Source: a bacterium (GTDB lineage: Bacteria; CSSED10-310; JAJRTK01). From it: a DNA stretch of 14,590 nucleotides. Numbering within the stretch: position 1 is the first letter of the stretch; every line of letters begins with the position of its first letter. A model generated the notes under the pieces. The model saw only the letters and a list, made by a program, of their open reading frames with translations. It was not told the origin of the DNA and did no database searches. Below, piece after piece: positions 6,701 to 14,379 of the stretch. The translations under genes were made by a program, and so were the position numbers. The stretch covers positions 1 to 14,590 of the forward strand of contig JAJRTK010000453.1 of the NCBI GenBank assembly GCA_024278345.1. The letters run 5' to 3'.

Positions 6701-7937
6701 CCTGATTCTCCAGCATCTTGGCCAGGTCCGTGGCATAGCCGAACCGATGCCGCGGATCCTTGCTGAGCAGCCTCAGGACCAATTCGTCCACTTCTCCGGG
6801 AATCCCCACAACCACGGTGGAGGGAGGTCTTGGAATCTTGCTCAAGTGATCCTGGATCACTTTGTTGCGCGAGCCGCCGGAAAAGGGGGGAGAACCCGTG
6901 AGAAGCTCGTAGAAGATGCAGCCCACGGAGTAGAGGTCCGCCCGGGCATCCACCCTCTGGCCAAGGATCTGCTCCGGAGCCATGTAGTTCAGGGTGCCGA
7001 CCGAAGGCGTCCCCGCGTCAAGGGTCTCGCGGCTCAAGGCATCCGTGAACCGCGAAAGGAGCCCAAAATCCACCAGCACGGGCATGTCGTTGTCGAGTAC
7101 CAGAACATTTCCGGGCTTCAGGTCCCGGTGGACCAGGCCTTCGCCGTGCAAATAGGCCAACGGAGCGCAAAGGTGGTGGATCATCCCAAGGATCGCCTCC
7201 AGCGCCGTTCCGTCCAGCATTCCGGATGGGGGCAGCCTCTCCATATCCGGAGCCCGGTCCAGGGGAGTGCTCCCAAGCGGCTGGGCCAGCGTCTGGGCGC
7301 TTTTCGCGCCCCGCAAACCCTCCACGGAAGTCAGGGATTCCGTCCACCATTCCGCGGAGCCTGAACCTGCCAGCCGGCCGGCATCTTCCGCTAGCTTTCG
7401 TCGTGGCGCGGCGCTTGGCTCCGCGCTGGAGGGATCTTTCTCCGCGGCAGCCCCAACCACCGTCCTGTCATCATCCATTTTACGGATTTGGACGAAAAGA
7501 GTGTTATCGGGAGGACCGGAAGCTGGCTCGACTCGGGTTTTCTTTGGCTTGGGAGCGGGGGCCAAAGTCGCTGTTTCGTTCAGAGAGGAAGTGGAAGAGG
7601 CCTGGCTTTTTGCCATCTCTCCCGCCAGCTCATTCCTCCACTGCCCCAACGTCCACCCTTTCAAGACCTCCATGGCATACCAGGGAAGCCCATTCAGAAT
7701 CCCATGGTCCAGAATCTTGACGATATTGGGGTGCCGAAGGCGAAAGAGTGCGTGGATCTCCCGCCGCATACTGGCAAGAAAGGTTTTTCGGGGCAACAAA
7801 ACCGTTTTCAGAGCGGCTAGACTGTCATTTTCCGCGTGCCGGGCAAGGTAAACGATTCCCATGCCGCCTTGGCCCAACGGTTCGAGGATCTTGTAAGGCC
7901 CGATCTGGTCGGGAACGGAGTGATTTGCCGTCGTCAT
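3789..7937 (-). CDS. Ser/Thr protein kinase with AAA ATPase and TPR array (PknK-like architecture), paralogue A
   Basis: The protein has 1382 residues. The kinase domain (about 14-410) has the glycine loop GQGGMGIVYLA (22-32), K44, E60, HRD (270-272), DFG (290-292) and APE (320-322), so it should be active. About residues 101-243 are an insert before helix E, mostly Ser/Pro/Ala-rich, containing WWTESLT (197-203) and PLGSTPL (220-226). An AAA/STAND-type ATPase follows, with Walker A GGESGVGKT (461-469) and Walker [14 protein letters not shown] (581-593). TPR units start near 835. Nine glycines or equivalent turns from 905 to 1225 recur exactly every 40 residues. There is no membrane segment, so it is probably cytoplasmic. 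The order kinase-ATPase-TPR matches the PknK type, in which the C-terminal part is thought to sense or bind partners. The ATG at 7937 has only a weak ribosome site. Confidence 0.92.
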   Translation of the reverse strand: MTTANHSVPDQIGPYKILEPLGQGGMGIVYLARHAENDSLAALKTVLLPRKTFLASMRREIHALFRLRHPNIVKILDHGILNGLPWYAMEVLKGWTLGQWRNELAGEMAKSQASSTSSLNETATLAPAPKPKKTRVEPASGPPDNTLFVQIRKMDDDRTVVGAAAEKDPSSAEPSAAPRRKLAEDAGRLAGSGSAEWWTESLTSVEGLRGAKSAQTLAQPLGSTPLDRAPDMERLPPSGMLDGTALEAILGMIHHLCAPLAYLHGEGLVHRDLKPGNVLVLDNDMPVLVDFGLLSRFTDALSRETLDAGTPSVGTLNYMAPEQILGQRVDARADLYSVGCIFYELLTGSPPFSGGSRNKVIQDHLSKIPRPPSTVVVGIPGEVDELVLRLLSKDPRHRFGYATDLAKMLENQGVPPMAPPAPKARSYLYLPGLAGRDAELGRLIKHLEHLKQGNGGLLLLGGESGVGKTRLLNELRRVAIRQRVEVLIGECLDSEEGPLRAFHKILEEIGDLCRQGGFARTKKILGRRGNLLSLYEKSLETLPGQEEIPPPADLPPDEARIRLFRALLETMSAVAELRQGLLLLFDDLQWADELTLGFLEFAHRSGELGKRRLLIIGDYRSEEKTAGLDRLLEFTDVEAMELARLREPAIVAMVGEMLAMFPPPENFGKALARHSEGNPFFVAEYLRTAVEERLLWRDERGSWQVAESTPEIHGTQYEGLALPSSLRELILRRFEGLSPPATELCQAAAVIGREVSLPLVERMVELEERLFLEASEELRRRKVLEEDSEGELRFNHDKLRETAYTWIDNRQRPLLHRAAATAMEAVLQANRKEHLAEMGQHWEKGGEKEQAANCYLEAAREAKKRAAYREAEELYRATLRLAPPSSADTVMIRNELGHDVLRDSGKLEEALTEHKEAIRLATELGDDKGRARSCLYLGHIHSDIGDMDRAETLFKTTLAIAHDLGEPRLEANALLQLGMLRRDQGRMEQARSIYENSLRAAKKAADPGFQARILNGLGILHSEQGRMEESRNLHKAAAGLAKRHGRQHTEGYALLNLANVEGELGRVESSLTLHEAALRISRVTADPRLEGIELINLAGCHLPRGNIKKALKFSKASLKIARDLQDHDTECHALGTLAHCHRELGSLEAARQHYEAAMKIALRLERPRLEGSMLRETGELALVRGTLDESETRLLRALAIARRIQEPHHESYALASVVELRLEQGRLEAAKLACEAAMEITKKIGEPELQADLLKLLARQARLAGGDLKQARSWLQKAEATFVESGSKLFLAKLYAELGHLELAMGILPRSSLHRIRKFLVSFDCGPKSDLGQRLDGLERAAAAFDKGEHQLLYRGELLEDLSPALRQRLTREIRGAHANQG

Positions 7938-8769: not shown

Positions 8770-9627
8770 CTATCGCCGGACATCCCGTGGATCCAGGACG
8801 TCCCGCAAGCCGTCACCCAGGAGGTTGAAACCCAGGATGACCAGCAGGATCGCTAAACCGGGGAAAAGCGTCAAGTGCGTGGCTGTGGGAAGAATCATGA
8901 ACTTCGTTCCCTCGTTGAGCATACTCCCAAAACTGGTGTTGGGTGGCTGGATTCCCAAGCCCAGAAAACTCAGCGATGCCTCCGCCAGGATTGCGCCAGC
9001 CATGCCGAACGTCGCCTGGACGATGAGCGGGGCTAGGGCGTTGGGCAAGATGTGGACCCCGATAATTCGCAAGGGACCTGCCCCCAAGCTTCGGGCCGCC
9101 TGGACGTATTCCATTTCCCTTTGCACCAGCACCTGCGCTCGGGCCAACCGGGCATAGCTCACCCAACCCGTCAGACAAAGCGCCAGCACGACCCGATCAA
9201 GGCCTGTTCCAAGAAAGGCTATCACCGCAATGGCCAGAAGCAATCCCGGGAAGGCCAGGAGGATATCGACGACCCGCATGGTGATCTCGTCCAGCCAGCC
9301 GCCCCAATACCCGGCCGCTGCCCCCAGGGAGATGCCGATGATGGACGAGATGAAGACGACGATGCACCCCACTCTCAAGGAGACGCGGCTCCCGTAGATC
9401 ACCCTTGACAAGATGTCTCGGCCCTCCGAGTCCCGGCCGAACGGATGAGACCAACTTGGCCCTTGGAAGGCGTGGCTTAAATCCTCCCGAGCCTCGTCAG
9501 CAACCCGATCGATAGGGTAGGGGGCGATCCAAGGCGCCAACAGAGCCACGGCGGCAAAAGAAACGACCAAGAAAATCCCAGAGATCAACAGCGGATTCCG
9601 GAAGGCCTTTTGGGTCACGGGGCTCAC
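8770..9627 (-). CDS. dppC: ABC transporter permease, DppC/OppC family
   Basis: This is one of the two inner-membrane permeases of a dipeptide/oligopeptide-type ABC importer (285 residues). Visible are an N-terminal helix (about 10-30), the family motif [19 protein letters not shown] (61-79), further hydrophobic segments, and the cytoplasmic loop that docks the ATPase, [17 protein letters not shown] (174-190) ending in HILPN. The start is a GTG at 9627 whose last bases overlap the TGA of the kinase gene (GTGA), with GAGGA six bases upstream. An upstream start at 9696 would add a hydrophilic stretch that only mirrors the kinase C terminus. The substrate could be peptides, nickel or other small solutes; the symbol is at family level. 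No binding protein or ATPase gene is in the window. Confidence 0.94.
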
Positions 9628-12600
9628 GATGCTTCCTCGGGATGGCGAGACCGCCCGGGGCCTCCAGGTTTTTGCGCCTGGTTGCTCTTCTTCCATCGGT
9701 TGGCAGGGGACTTCCCGGAGTTGCCAAGAGTCTCCCGCACAGCTTCTTCCAGCCGCCTACGTTGCCGAAGGAGAGGGCATGCAGGCAGCAGATCGTTTTC
9801 CGCCAACAGGCGGTCGATCACCTCCAAATAGCTCGTGCGGCCACCGCCCCGGGCCAGCTTCAGATGGACCATCTCCATGAGGCAGGCCGCTCGTCCCATG
9901 GGTGTTCCCAGACTGTCGAACAGGGGCATGGCCGACGCGATCAGTGAACCTGCTCGATGGAGGTCGCCGGTCAGCCTCCTGTGCACGATGGCCGCCTGTA
10001 GAAGAGCCCGTGCTTCCACGCCTCGGTCCCGAATGGAGACAAGGAGATCTTGGGTCTCATGGACGAGCCGCAGCGCTTGCGGAAGATCCTCCAACTCCGT
10101 GTACAGTGCGGTAAGCTCCGTGAGCGTCTCGGTTTCGTATCGCGGGTCGCCCACCAAGCGCAAGAGTTCCAGGGCCTGCCCGAAGAGTTCACGCGCCCGG
10201 TGGATTTGCCGGCCATGGAACTCGATGGAGCCCAGGTTCGCCAACGTAATCCCTTCGGATCTGCGGTTTTGCAGCTTTCTGTGGAGGGCCAGGGCTTGGA
10301 GCTGAAGCTCCTTTGCACGTAGGAAGTCTCCCCTTGTGGCCTGCACGACGCCAAGATTGCTGAGGCTGATCCCTTCCAAGCTGGGGTTCAGGGTTTCTCT
10401 GTGGATTTGGATGGCCGTTTCAAAGCTCCTCCGGGCCTTGGCAAGCGCTCCGCCCTCGAGCTGGGCCGCTCCCAGCACGGTCCAGGTTGTGCCCTCCATT
10501 TTTCGGTCGCCAAGCTCTCGGAAGAGGTCCAGGGCCCGGTGGCAGGAGTCTTGAGCTTCTTGGAGCCGGCCCAGGGCCCTCTGGATCGTGGACAGCCCCT
10601 GGAGACTTCGTGCCTCTCCCGGAGAGTCGCCGATCTGTTGCGCTTCATTCAGGGCCAGGATCTCTTCGTCCAACCCTTCCAGATCCCGGCCCTGGAGGTG
10701 GAGCACTTCCCTGGCGAGCTCGTTTCGCGCCTGGATCGACCGAGGAGTTGGCGTGGGGGAGAGGCCGATGACGTTGCGGTAGAGCCGCTCGGCCTCCGTG
10801 TGCGCGTAGCGGGAAGTCGCCGCCCTTGCCGCCATGAGGTAGTAGTCTTGCGCTTTTGACCGGTTACCCACGGCTGCCCAATGGGATCCAAGCTCTGATA
10901 AGGCCAGCGGCTCCGGCTCCGGTGCCCTGGACTCCAAGGCTTCCGCCGCCAGGCGATGAAGCTGCTTTGCCTTGTCCGGCCTCAGATTGTCATAGGCAAC
11001 TCTTCGGAGGCCGTCGTGAAGGAAGCGGAGGTGCCCCGGCTCCGATTCTTTCAAAATCTGGCGGCGCAGCAGATCGAGAATTCCGTCCAGAATGGTTTCA
11101 CTGTCCAGGGCAACCAAACTCGAAAGCAACTCAAGGCTGGGGGCCTCTCCCAGAACGGCCGCCGCCCCCAAGATCTCCTCCACCCTTGTGTCGAGCCCCG
11201 TGAGCCGCCGCTGGAACAAATTCCGGAGGGTTGCTGGAAGATCCAGGGTCTCAAAACCAGCCGTAGGCTCTGTTTCGCTGGGCGGCGGAAGCCGCCAACG
11301 GCCTGCCTGGTCCAGATGGAGCACTCCCTCCGCGATCCCGGCTCTGAGGTATTCGGCGATGAAGAATGGGTTGCCCGCCGACCGTTGGCTCAGCCACTGG
11401 ATGAACTCCTGAGGGACATCAGGAAAGGCCAGCATATCCGCCACCATCCTGCCGACGGCGGCCTGGAAAAGCTTGCCGAGCTCGATCTTGCTCGCTCTCC
11501 CTGTTTCGCTAAGTTTCCGCAAGGCCTCAGGGGCTTCCTCCAGCCGGTACGTCCCCAAGATCATCCAAGGCGCCGGGTTGAGAGTGTCGGCGAACAGCGC
11601 GGCCTCAAGGAACCCAAGAGTCAGCTCATCAGCCCATTGGAGATCATCGATGACCAGGAGTAAAGGGCGGATTGCCGCAAGGGAGGAGAGAGTTTCGAGG
11701 AGTGCTTCGTAGAGCACGGCCCGGAAGCGATCAGGAGCGAAGGGTGGCACCGGTGGCCACTCTTTGGCCCCGGGGTTTTGGAAGAGTGATGGTTGAAACA
11801 TTCCCAAGAGACGCCCGTGCTCCCCCAGGACCTCTTGGGCAGATGCCCCCCCTAGTTCCCGGCAGCGGTCCGCCACGGCTTCCAGGGGCTTACGAAGGCC
11901 CGCCAACAGGGGATGGCCACCGGAATCCGACGATGACGTCGTTCCTGTAGAAGAGCGGCATTCTCCTGCCAGAACCTGCATTCTCCATCGTCTTGCCGTC
12001 GTGGCGGCTTCCATTGCCAGGCGGGTCTTACCCGAACCGCTCTCCCCGACGATAAACATGATCTCCCTCGACCCTTCCCGGGTTGCCTCCAGACTGGCCG
12101 TCAACTCCTTCAAGGCGGTCTCTCGTCCCGCCAGTCGCGGTCTGTACAGGAGAGGCCGTGCTGCTGGACGTCTCTGGCTGGGCCGCTCCGCGCCGAGTCT
12201 CACCAATCTCTCCGCCACGATTCGAGCGTAGCCGATCCTTTCTTCCGGGCTCTTGGCCAAAAGATGCGCTAGCAGCCGGTCCAGGTCGAAATCGATCCCC
12301 GAAACCACTCGGGATGCAGGCGTCAATGCCTGTCCTAAATGGCATTCCAAAACTTGCCGTTCCGGACTGCCTAGAAAAGGCGGAGAACCGGTCAACAGCT
12401 CATAAAGGATACAACCCACAGCGTAGAGGTCGGCTCGGGCGTCCACAAGCTCGCCGCGGATCTGCTCTGGTGCCATGTACCAGGCCGTGCCTGCCAGTGT
12501 CCCGCTTGCTTCAAAGCTTTCGCGGCCAGGGGCGTTACCCGTGGGAAATGCCAGTCCAAAATCTACCAAGACCGGGCGGCCATCCGGTTGTACAAGGATG

Positions 12601-13385
12601 TTGCCAGGCTTCAGGTCCCGATGGACAAGGCCCTGGCCGTGTAGATAGTCCAGCGCGTCGCAGATTCTTGCCACGAGGGTCAAAGCCAGTTCAATCGCTC
12701 CCCCTGCCGCCCGCCTCCGGCTCGATGGGTTCGGGCTTCCGATTTCCCTGTTTTCTGGTGCTTCTCCGGCGCAAACCATCGGTGGTTTCCCACCCGTGGA
12801 CAATGGGCTGCTGCCAAGGGGCGCCGTCACGCTTTCCCATCCCTTTTCTTCATGCCCGGCTGCTATTTCTTGCCCCTGCGTCGCGGTTCTTGGCAAGCGT
12901 GCCGGAGCTTCTGATGGCGTCGGGCCTCGGTACCATGGCCCACCGCACTGATTTCCGTTCCGTGCGGGCAGCGTCAGTGTTTCAGTCCACCAGACTTCAG
13001 GCTGGTTTTTGCCGTTTCCCGGTGGAGTCCCGGATCTGGGGGCTCGCCTTCCCCGATCTCTTTGGAGTTTGGTGAAGTCAGGGCTCACCAGAGCGAAGTG
13101 GTCCACCAGATTGACGCCGCTGAGCTTGTCCATGGCATACCAGGGAATCCCCTCGTGTACGCCGTGATCTACGATCTTCACGATGAGGGGATGTTCCAGG
13201 CGGGCAAGTGCATGGATCTCCCGCCGGATTCCTGCCAGCATGCCACGAGAAGGGGCTTCCACCGTTTTGAGAGCGACCTCACGGCCCGAGTCCTTCTCCA
13301 CGGCGGCGTACACAATTCCTCCGCCGCCCTGCCCCAAGGGCGTCAGAAGCCGGTAAGAACCGATGATTGTTTCTTGGCCAGGCAT
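9624..13385 (-). CDS. Ser/Thr protein kinase with AAA ATPase and TPR array (PknK-like architecture), paralogue B
   Basis: The protein has 1253 residues. Kinase landmarks are the glycine loop [11 protein letters not shown] (18-28), K40, E56, HRD (255-257), DFG (275-277) and APE (305-307). An insert (about 98-228) at the same place as in paralogue A carries WWTETLT (132-138) and PLGSSPL (189-195). The ATPase has Walker A GESGSGKT (447-454) and Walker [14 protein letters not shown] (575-587); [10 protein letters not shown] (672-681) is shared with paralogue A. About six TPR units (near 895-1150) have a 40-residue period, and the tail (1224-1253) is basic. The ATG at 13385 with GGTGG upstream is preferred over a TTG at 13400. 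It lies between the two ABC permease genes, 40 bases after one and overlapping the other, so it is probably made with the transporter and may sense its activity or modify it. Confidence 0.92.
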
Positions 13386-13425
13386 GGTTTGCCACCCCAA
13401 CGAAAACTCGCCGAGACCGCGGGAG

Positions 13426-14379
13426 TCACCCCAACTGAACCCTGGGATCGAGCCACGAGTAAAGAAGATCGACCACCAGGTTCACCAGCACGTAAACCAG
13501 AGCAATCACAAGGATACAGCCCTGCACCAAAGGATAATCCCGATTCTGGATCGCCTCCAAAGTCAGCAGGCCGAGTCCCTTCCAAGTAAAGATTGTTTCG
13601 GTGATGATTGCTCCAGTCATGAGCGCTCCGAATTGGAGCCCCGCAATCGTCGCCACCGGTATGAGGGCGTTTTTTAGAGCATGGACGAAGAGAACCCGGC
13701 TCCTGCCGAGTCCCTTGGCTCGTGCCGTGCGGATGTAGTCCGAACGCAGTACTTCCAGCATCGATGAACGGGTCATTCGGGTCAAGATCCCAGCCAGCGA
13801 TGTCCCCAAAGTCACGGCGGGCAGGACGATACTCAGGGCACCGCCTTCACTGGGCATGGGAAAGAGACTCAATCGATAGCAAAAGAAGATAATCAGCATC
13901 GCGCCCAGCCAGAAGTTAGGGAGGGAAATCCCTATGAGCGCCCCAATCATCGACCCCAAATCAACCCATGAACCCTGGCGCACCGCTGCTAATATCCCCA
14001 ACGGAATTGAGATCAACAGCGCCAGAAGAATACTCGCCATGGCCAGAATCGCCGTGTTCGGCAAACGCTCCCAAAGGAGCGCGGATACCGGCGTCCCCCG
14101 GCTGAAGTTGAAGCTCTCTCCAAGATCTCCGTGCAACAGCCCTGAAAGAAAAATCCCGTAGCGCACCGGGAGGGGCCTGTCCAGGTTTAGCGACTGGCGC
14201 AGCGTTTCCCGGTCCACTGGCATGGCTCCTTCGCCAAGGATTGCGTCCACGGGATCGCCTGGCACGATAGCCATTAAAAAGAAAACAATCGTCGCCAGCC
14301 CCAACACCGTGGGTACAAGAAGCAGCAGCCGCCTGAGGATGTAGCTCGCCAAATCTCCACGCCCTCCCAGCGGGATCAT
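13426..14379 (-). CDS. dppB: ABC transporter permease, DppB/OppB family
   Basis: This is the second permease of the dipeptide/oligopeptide-type importer (317 residues). The N terminus has the typical [15 protein letters not shown] (13-27), followed by VPGDPVD (39-45), the periplasmic motif LHGDLGESF (82-90), and the ATPase-docking loop [20 protein letters not shown] (214-233) ending NALIP. The protein ends in the common WLDPRV. About six membrane segments are visible. The ATG at 14379 lacks a strong ribosome site. A TTG at 14352 is an alternative that would start nearer the family's usual N terminus. It is the first gene of the inferred dppB-kinase-dppC unit. Its promoter would lie in 14380-14513, where I see no clear -10/-35 pair. 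The substrate is unknown. Confidence 0.94.

Follow-up and report, generated by a model that had tools for sequence, protein, structure and literature searches.

The window analysed here, the whole stretch of 14,590 nucleotides, encodes two large protein kinases, P0001 and P0002, whose kinase domains carry a long insert between helices D and E. According to the initial annotation, both inserts have diverged except for a heptapeptide, WWTE[ST]LT, and a second short element, PLGS[ST]PL. This raises the question of whether selection has retained a paired-tryptophan element in a disordered part of the kinase and, if so, whether it serves in docking, in autoinhibition or as a site of phosphorylation, the three roles proposed for it.

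Both proteins have the same Pfam domain order, Pkinase, AAA_16 (STAND ATPase) and TPR_12/TPR_MalT. The Gly loop, the VAxK lysine, the helix C glutamate and the HRD, DFG and APE motifs were all found by alignment in both kinase domains. Judged by architecture, P0001 and P0002 are Hanks-type Ser/Thr kinases of the PknK-like STAND class; the Hanks kinase, the STAND-type ATPase and the helical repeats are common to them and Mycobacterium tuberculosis PknK, a likeness of Pfam architecture. The top structural matches to an AlphaFold model of the P0002 kinase domain were M. tuberculosis PknB and related kinases. The best NCBIfam match, to the ATPase-TPR part, was the TOMM system kinase/cyclase fusion (TIGR03903); its scores of 219.5 and 225.3 bits are far under the curated cut-off of 705.75, and membership was rejected. 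PADLOC matches to PD-T4-6 fall on the kinase domain and are uninformative about defence. P0002 is located between two permease genes, one DppB-like (13426-14379) and one OppC-like (8770-9696), all on one strand, as if inserted into an oligopeptide/dipeptide-type transporter operon (8770-14379).

Table 1. Coordinates of the two kinase genes, their inserts and the short elements within them.
Feature	Coordinates	Strand	Remarks
PknK-like protein P0002	9624..13385	-	ATG at 13385, TTG at 13400 possible; Pfam Pkinase 3e-42, AAA_16 1.4e-23, TPR_12 1.3e-16
P0002 kinase-domain insert, helix D to helix E	12702..13094	-	predicted disordered (AlphaFold)
WWTETLT motif copy, P0002	12972..12992	-	codons TGG TGG ACT GAA ACA CTG ACG (12992-12972)
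PLGSSPL, P0002	12801..12821	-	not family-conserved
PknK-like protein P0001	3789..7937	-	Pfam Pkinase 9.6e-40, AAA_16 5.4e-23, TPR_12 4.4e-39
P0001 kinase-domain insert, helix D to helix E	7206..7628	-	ends estimated from alignment
WWTESLT motif copy, P0001	7329..7349	-	codons TGG TGG ACG GAA TCC CTG ACT (7349-7329)
PLGSTPL, P0001	7260..7280	-	not family-conserved

In the model of the P0002 kinase domain, helix D comprises residues 95-107 and helix E residues 232-252, which confirms the proposed location of the insert. Residues 115-218 have a pLDDT of about 33 and are almost devoid of secondary structure, and 222 core residues have a pLDDT >=90. Measured from the WYAM hinge to the HxD catalytic loop, the insert is 89-200 residues long in 21 PknK-like kinases of the window genome (G000; 6.06 Mb, 550 contigs). 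Its composition is rich in Ala, Pro, Ser and Gly, and outside the motif it is unalignable among family members, in line with the divergence claimed initially. In location, length and predicted disorder, the insert matches a kinase insert domain of the helix D-helix E type.

Both heptapeptides are present as annotated and are encoded by differing codons, including different codons for both shared threonines. Among 32 copies the first position is W (31 copies; F in one), the second W (32), the third T (31; I in one), the fourth variable, the fifth S (17) or T (4) and the sixth L (25), V (3), F (2) or I (1), commonly followed by A, G or T. As read from these copies, the family-wide motif is [W/F]-W-T-x-[S/T]-[L/V/I/F], with the consensus form WWTx[S/T]L[A/G/T]. 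The WWT core and position 6 of the annotated heptapeptide are thereby upheld; the glutamate at position 4 and the threonine at position 7 are not conserved. All four Thr codons (ACC 13, ACG 11, ACA 5, ACT 3) and five Leu codons are in use among the copies, so selection acts on the protein.

In the window genome, 11 of the 21 long-insert PknK-like kinases contain [W/F]WTxx[L/V] in the insert. Pooled with three further genomes (G001, G003 and G007), which represent three separate families of the same small phylum, at least 33 of 75 long-insert kinases carry the motif, counts that are lower bounds because the G003 kinases were only partly fetched and a hinge regular expression was used to find them. 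The motif is thus conserved in four genomes and is not limited to the two paralogues of the window, where the likeness of the heptapeptides is by itself just mildly surprising. The strict form WWTxx[LVIF] occurs in 30 of the 75 inserts; 2000 residue shuffles averaged 0.04 and never exceeded 2. There is one motif per protein, always within the same insert and never elsewhere in the kinases examined. Enumeration of three-residue gapped patterns over all inserts showed enrichment of fragments of WWTx[S/T]L only, and no comparable pattern emerged after removal of the motif or in motif-free inserts. Decayed remnants in motif-free inserts are about as frequent as expected (2 against 1.4), and a single plainly decayed copy was seen, WWTAHP in L280. 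The proposal that selection retains a paired-tryptophan element within a kinase insert that is disordered and has diverged is borne out across the family.

The placement of the motif is also constrained. Counted from the start of PWYAM, the first tryptophan comes after 24-112 residues (median 49), and 24 of 33 copies fall between 40 and 60, where ∼10 would be expected under uniform placement. The hinge-to-motif distance is usually 43-56 residues; its interquartile range is 9, compared with 32 for uniform placement in the same inserts, and none of 20,000 draws was as tight. P0001 is the one far outlier, with the motif 112 residues from the hinge. PLGS[ST]PL, which had been put forward as a second retained element, is confined to the two window proteins and absent from every other family member examined. 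It is a single 6-of-7 match and is unsupported as a second motif, because 4 of 300 shuffled pairs match as well.

A motif profile was used to scan eight genomes of the phylum at E up to 0.05, and it matched almost exclusively kinases of the PknK-like long-insert family, a result that is partly by construction because the profile was built from these phylum genomes. Four copies in G003 (C165, C202 twice, and a 57-aa frame at C72) lie outside the profile alignment and are informative, together with absence of the motif elsewhere. The exceptions were a 330-aa membrane-like protein in G005 and the 57-aa G003 frame, which resembles a kinase fragment. The membrane-like protein and some transporter-like frames look like chance matches. 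The motif also lies in truncated frames at G003:C202:12192-12233 (361 aa) and G003:C72:75350-75388 (57 aa), which look like family kinases that have been broken or frameshifted.

Outside the phylum, ∼1,030 genomes were scanned with the profile (235 from the phylum of a Polyangiaceae relative, 396 from that of a Thermoanaerobaculia relative and 398 from a third), and no convincing case of the motif was found. Matches were mostly in short random frames; the longer frames hit include three of 803, 906 and 361 aa and two others, which were read and are not kinase-like. Unlike the window proteins, 53 related kinases parsed from named genomes of other phyla all lack the motif, and most lack the long insert. 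The nearest named relatives, two Polyangiaceae kinases (L030 and L031), have a short insert from which the motif is absent. Within the sample, the motif appears restricted to one small phylum. The initial annotation knew of no such motif at this position, and a search of the open-access literature, a scope outside which most subscription literature lies, likewise found no description. WWTx[S/T]L is, on the sequence evidence, a real short linear motif, previously undescribed as far as the literature is searchable.

A tree built from 85 kinase cores, with the insert left out, had almost no resolution; the median length of its end branches was 0.75 changes per site. The kinases of P0001 and P0002 are not sisters on this tree; rather than a special pair, they are two among many paralogues that have diverged to about the same degree. 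Motif presence requires 26 changes on the tree, losses and gains counted together, and the mean for shuffled labels is 26.3, so motif presence is not clustered. Few fixed positions, disordered and diverged surroundings, and apparently frequent loss or gain are features expected of a short linear motif. In many of the kinases the arginine of HRD is replaced by Gly, Leu or Cys (in the window genome, L007, L011, L013, L016, L018, L019, L021, L022 and L023). Such non-RD kinases make up 10 of 33 motif-bearing and 6 of 42 motif-free long-insert kinases in the four genomes (p = 0.15).

Packing of the tryptophans on the kinase or ATPase domain was one suggestion to be examined in predicted structures. 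It was not seen: both AlphaFold models, of the P0002 kinase domain and of P0002 residues 4-1198, leave the motif undocked and the insert disordered. This counts as weak evidence because the window proteins were the only two insert-bearing sequences in the AlphaFold alignment. A dedicated pocket for the motif on its own protein should set motif-bearing paralogues apart from motif-free ones at that site. With 29-33 motif-bearing and 39-42 motif-free proteins, a sample of modest power, 7 tests in the kinase core (303 columns, two alphabets) reached p<=0.01, compared with 6 expected. In the stretch that starts shortly before HRD and runs to the C terminus, p<=0.01 was reached by 9 of 1011 columns, compared with 10 expected; six columns had the minimum p of 0.002, about two being expected, and these were at scattered positions.

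Docking fits best among the roles initially proposed. Our preferred reading, which we hold tentatively and at slightly less than an even chance, is that WWTx[S/T]L acts as a short linear docking motif on a tether and is recognised by a partner that the kinases share in trans. The motif would be displayed on a disordered tether that emerges between helices D and E of the kinase, and a groove of the partner would receive the two aromatics, the beta-branched residue and the hydrophobic residue at position 6. The partner would be common to many kinases of the family and may be an adaptor, a substrate carrier, a phosphatase or another family kinase. Tagged kinases would plug into it, and paralogues that have lost the tag would not. 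We infer protein binding, the position of the partner in trans and the sharing of that partner; a shared trans partner is the simplest reading. Further support for docking comes from the near-invariant W and T of positions 2 and 3 amid an unalignable insert, from the constrained distance to the hinge, and from free turnover of the motif among paralogues with no clear coupling to the remaining protein. The reading is weakened because the flanking genes give no partner (no gene family specific to motif-bearing loci is shared among them) and because the narrow hinge spacing would also suit docking on the kinase's own body. A family with GAF and sigma-54 activator-like features, judged by eye, recurs near PknK-like kinases of G003 (L352, L355, L364, L366 and L369), whether the motif is present or absent. 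A bolder version is possible but doubtful: one shared partner would read WWTxSL on dozens of differently acting STAND kinases and so wire the family into one hub, with paralogues gaining or losing the tag independently of their kinase and sensor domains.

The spacing, along with the occurrence of a single motif per protein, always in the same insert, speaks for an in-cis latch, in which WWTxSL would dock on the N-lobe, the back face of helix E, the ATPase or the TPR domain of its own protein and lock the enzyme in an active or inactive state, much as the hydrophobic motifs of AGC kinases do. Intramolecular contacts keep STAND proteins in a closed state (PMC4381067). An in-cis latch of this kind is nevertheless rather unlikely, given that clear co-variation with the motif is seen at no column of the kinase core or the C-terminal region, that the motif is undocked and disordered in both models and that the P0001 copy lies so far from the hinge; a pocket invariant across the family would escape these tests. 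The autoinhibitory role proposed initially thus has neither clear co-variation nor modelled docking behind it.

A phosphorylated element was the third proposed role. The motif threonine would be autophosphorylated and then read by an FHA domain. FHA domains show selectivity at the +3 position, where Leu would suit, and this position is hydrophobic in 31 of 32 copies; the threonine itself is nearly invariant and never Ser. The four motif-bearing genomes contain 14 to 55 FHA matches each, and FHA domains are known bacterial partners of such kinases (PMC4238996), although FHA proteins are common in these bacteria anyway. Phosphorylation is not favoured because one copy has Ile in place of Thr, which keeps the beta-branched shape and provides no phosphosite, and because position 5 is often neither Ser nor Thr. 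FHA recognition would also leave the two nearly invariant tryptophans unexplained, and a phospho-Thr switch seems improbable.

Carriers are confined to a single kinase family of a single phylum, as would be expected if the heptapeptide were a neutral relic or a recently copied cassette, shared through recent descent or gene conversion alone. This is very improbable in view of the scrambled synonymous codons, the unalignable flanks, the long end branches with carriers spread across the tree, and the rarity of plainly decayed copies. That the motif is an ordinary part of the kinase fold, for instance through lengthening of helix D or helix E, can be set aside almost entirely: it lies within the kinase domain, but is predicted to be disordered and outside both helices, and it is missing from the 53 related kinases parsed from other phyla.

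Preferred here as a trans-docking element, WWTx[S/T]L has counterparts in better-known systems. In the PDGFR/KIT/VEGFR receptor tyrosine kinases, the disordered insert that separates helices D and E is a docking platform whose phosphotyrosines are read by SH2 domains. The bacterial insert occupies the same site in the fold and is likewise predicted to be disordered; it has WWTxSL instead, and shows no sign of homology. The hydrophobic motif of AGC kinases, FxxF[S/T]F, which binds the PIF pocket, is also tethered, aromatic-rich and close to Ser/Thr, but it is located C-terminal to the kinase, whereas WWTxSL sits in the helix D-helix E insert. To our knowledge, the placing of linear docking motifs within kinase inserts is a theme of eukaryotes, with few known cases in bacteria. 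The insert domain of land plant RLCK XI kinases, which harbours nuclear localisation signals, is similarly long and disordered with few conserved motifs, and differs in its location between subdomains VII and VIII (PMC9992409).

About half of a large STAND-kinase family has kept the motif while the remaining insert has diverged past alignment. This gives a six-residue handle for seeking the shared partner of these kinases, and motif-bearing and motif-free paralogues within one cell form a natural control set. The expansion of Ser/Thr kinases in these bacteria is very large, with 129 Pkinase matches in the window genome and 160 family-profile matches in G003. Many of the kinases in these two genomes are STAND kinases of 1,100-1,400 residues, dispersed as orphan genes.
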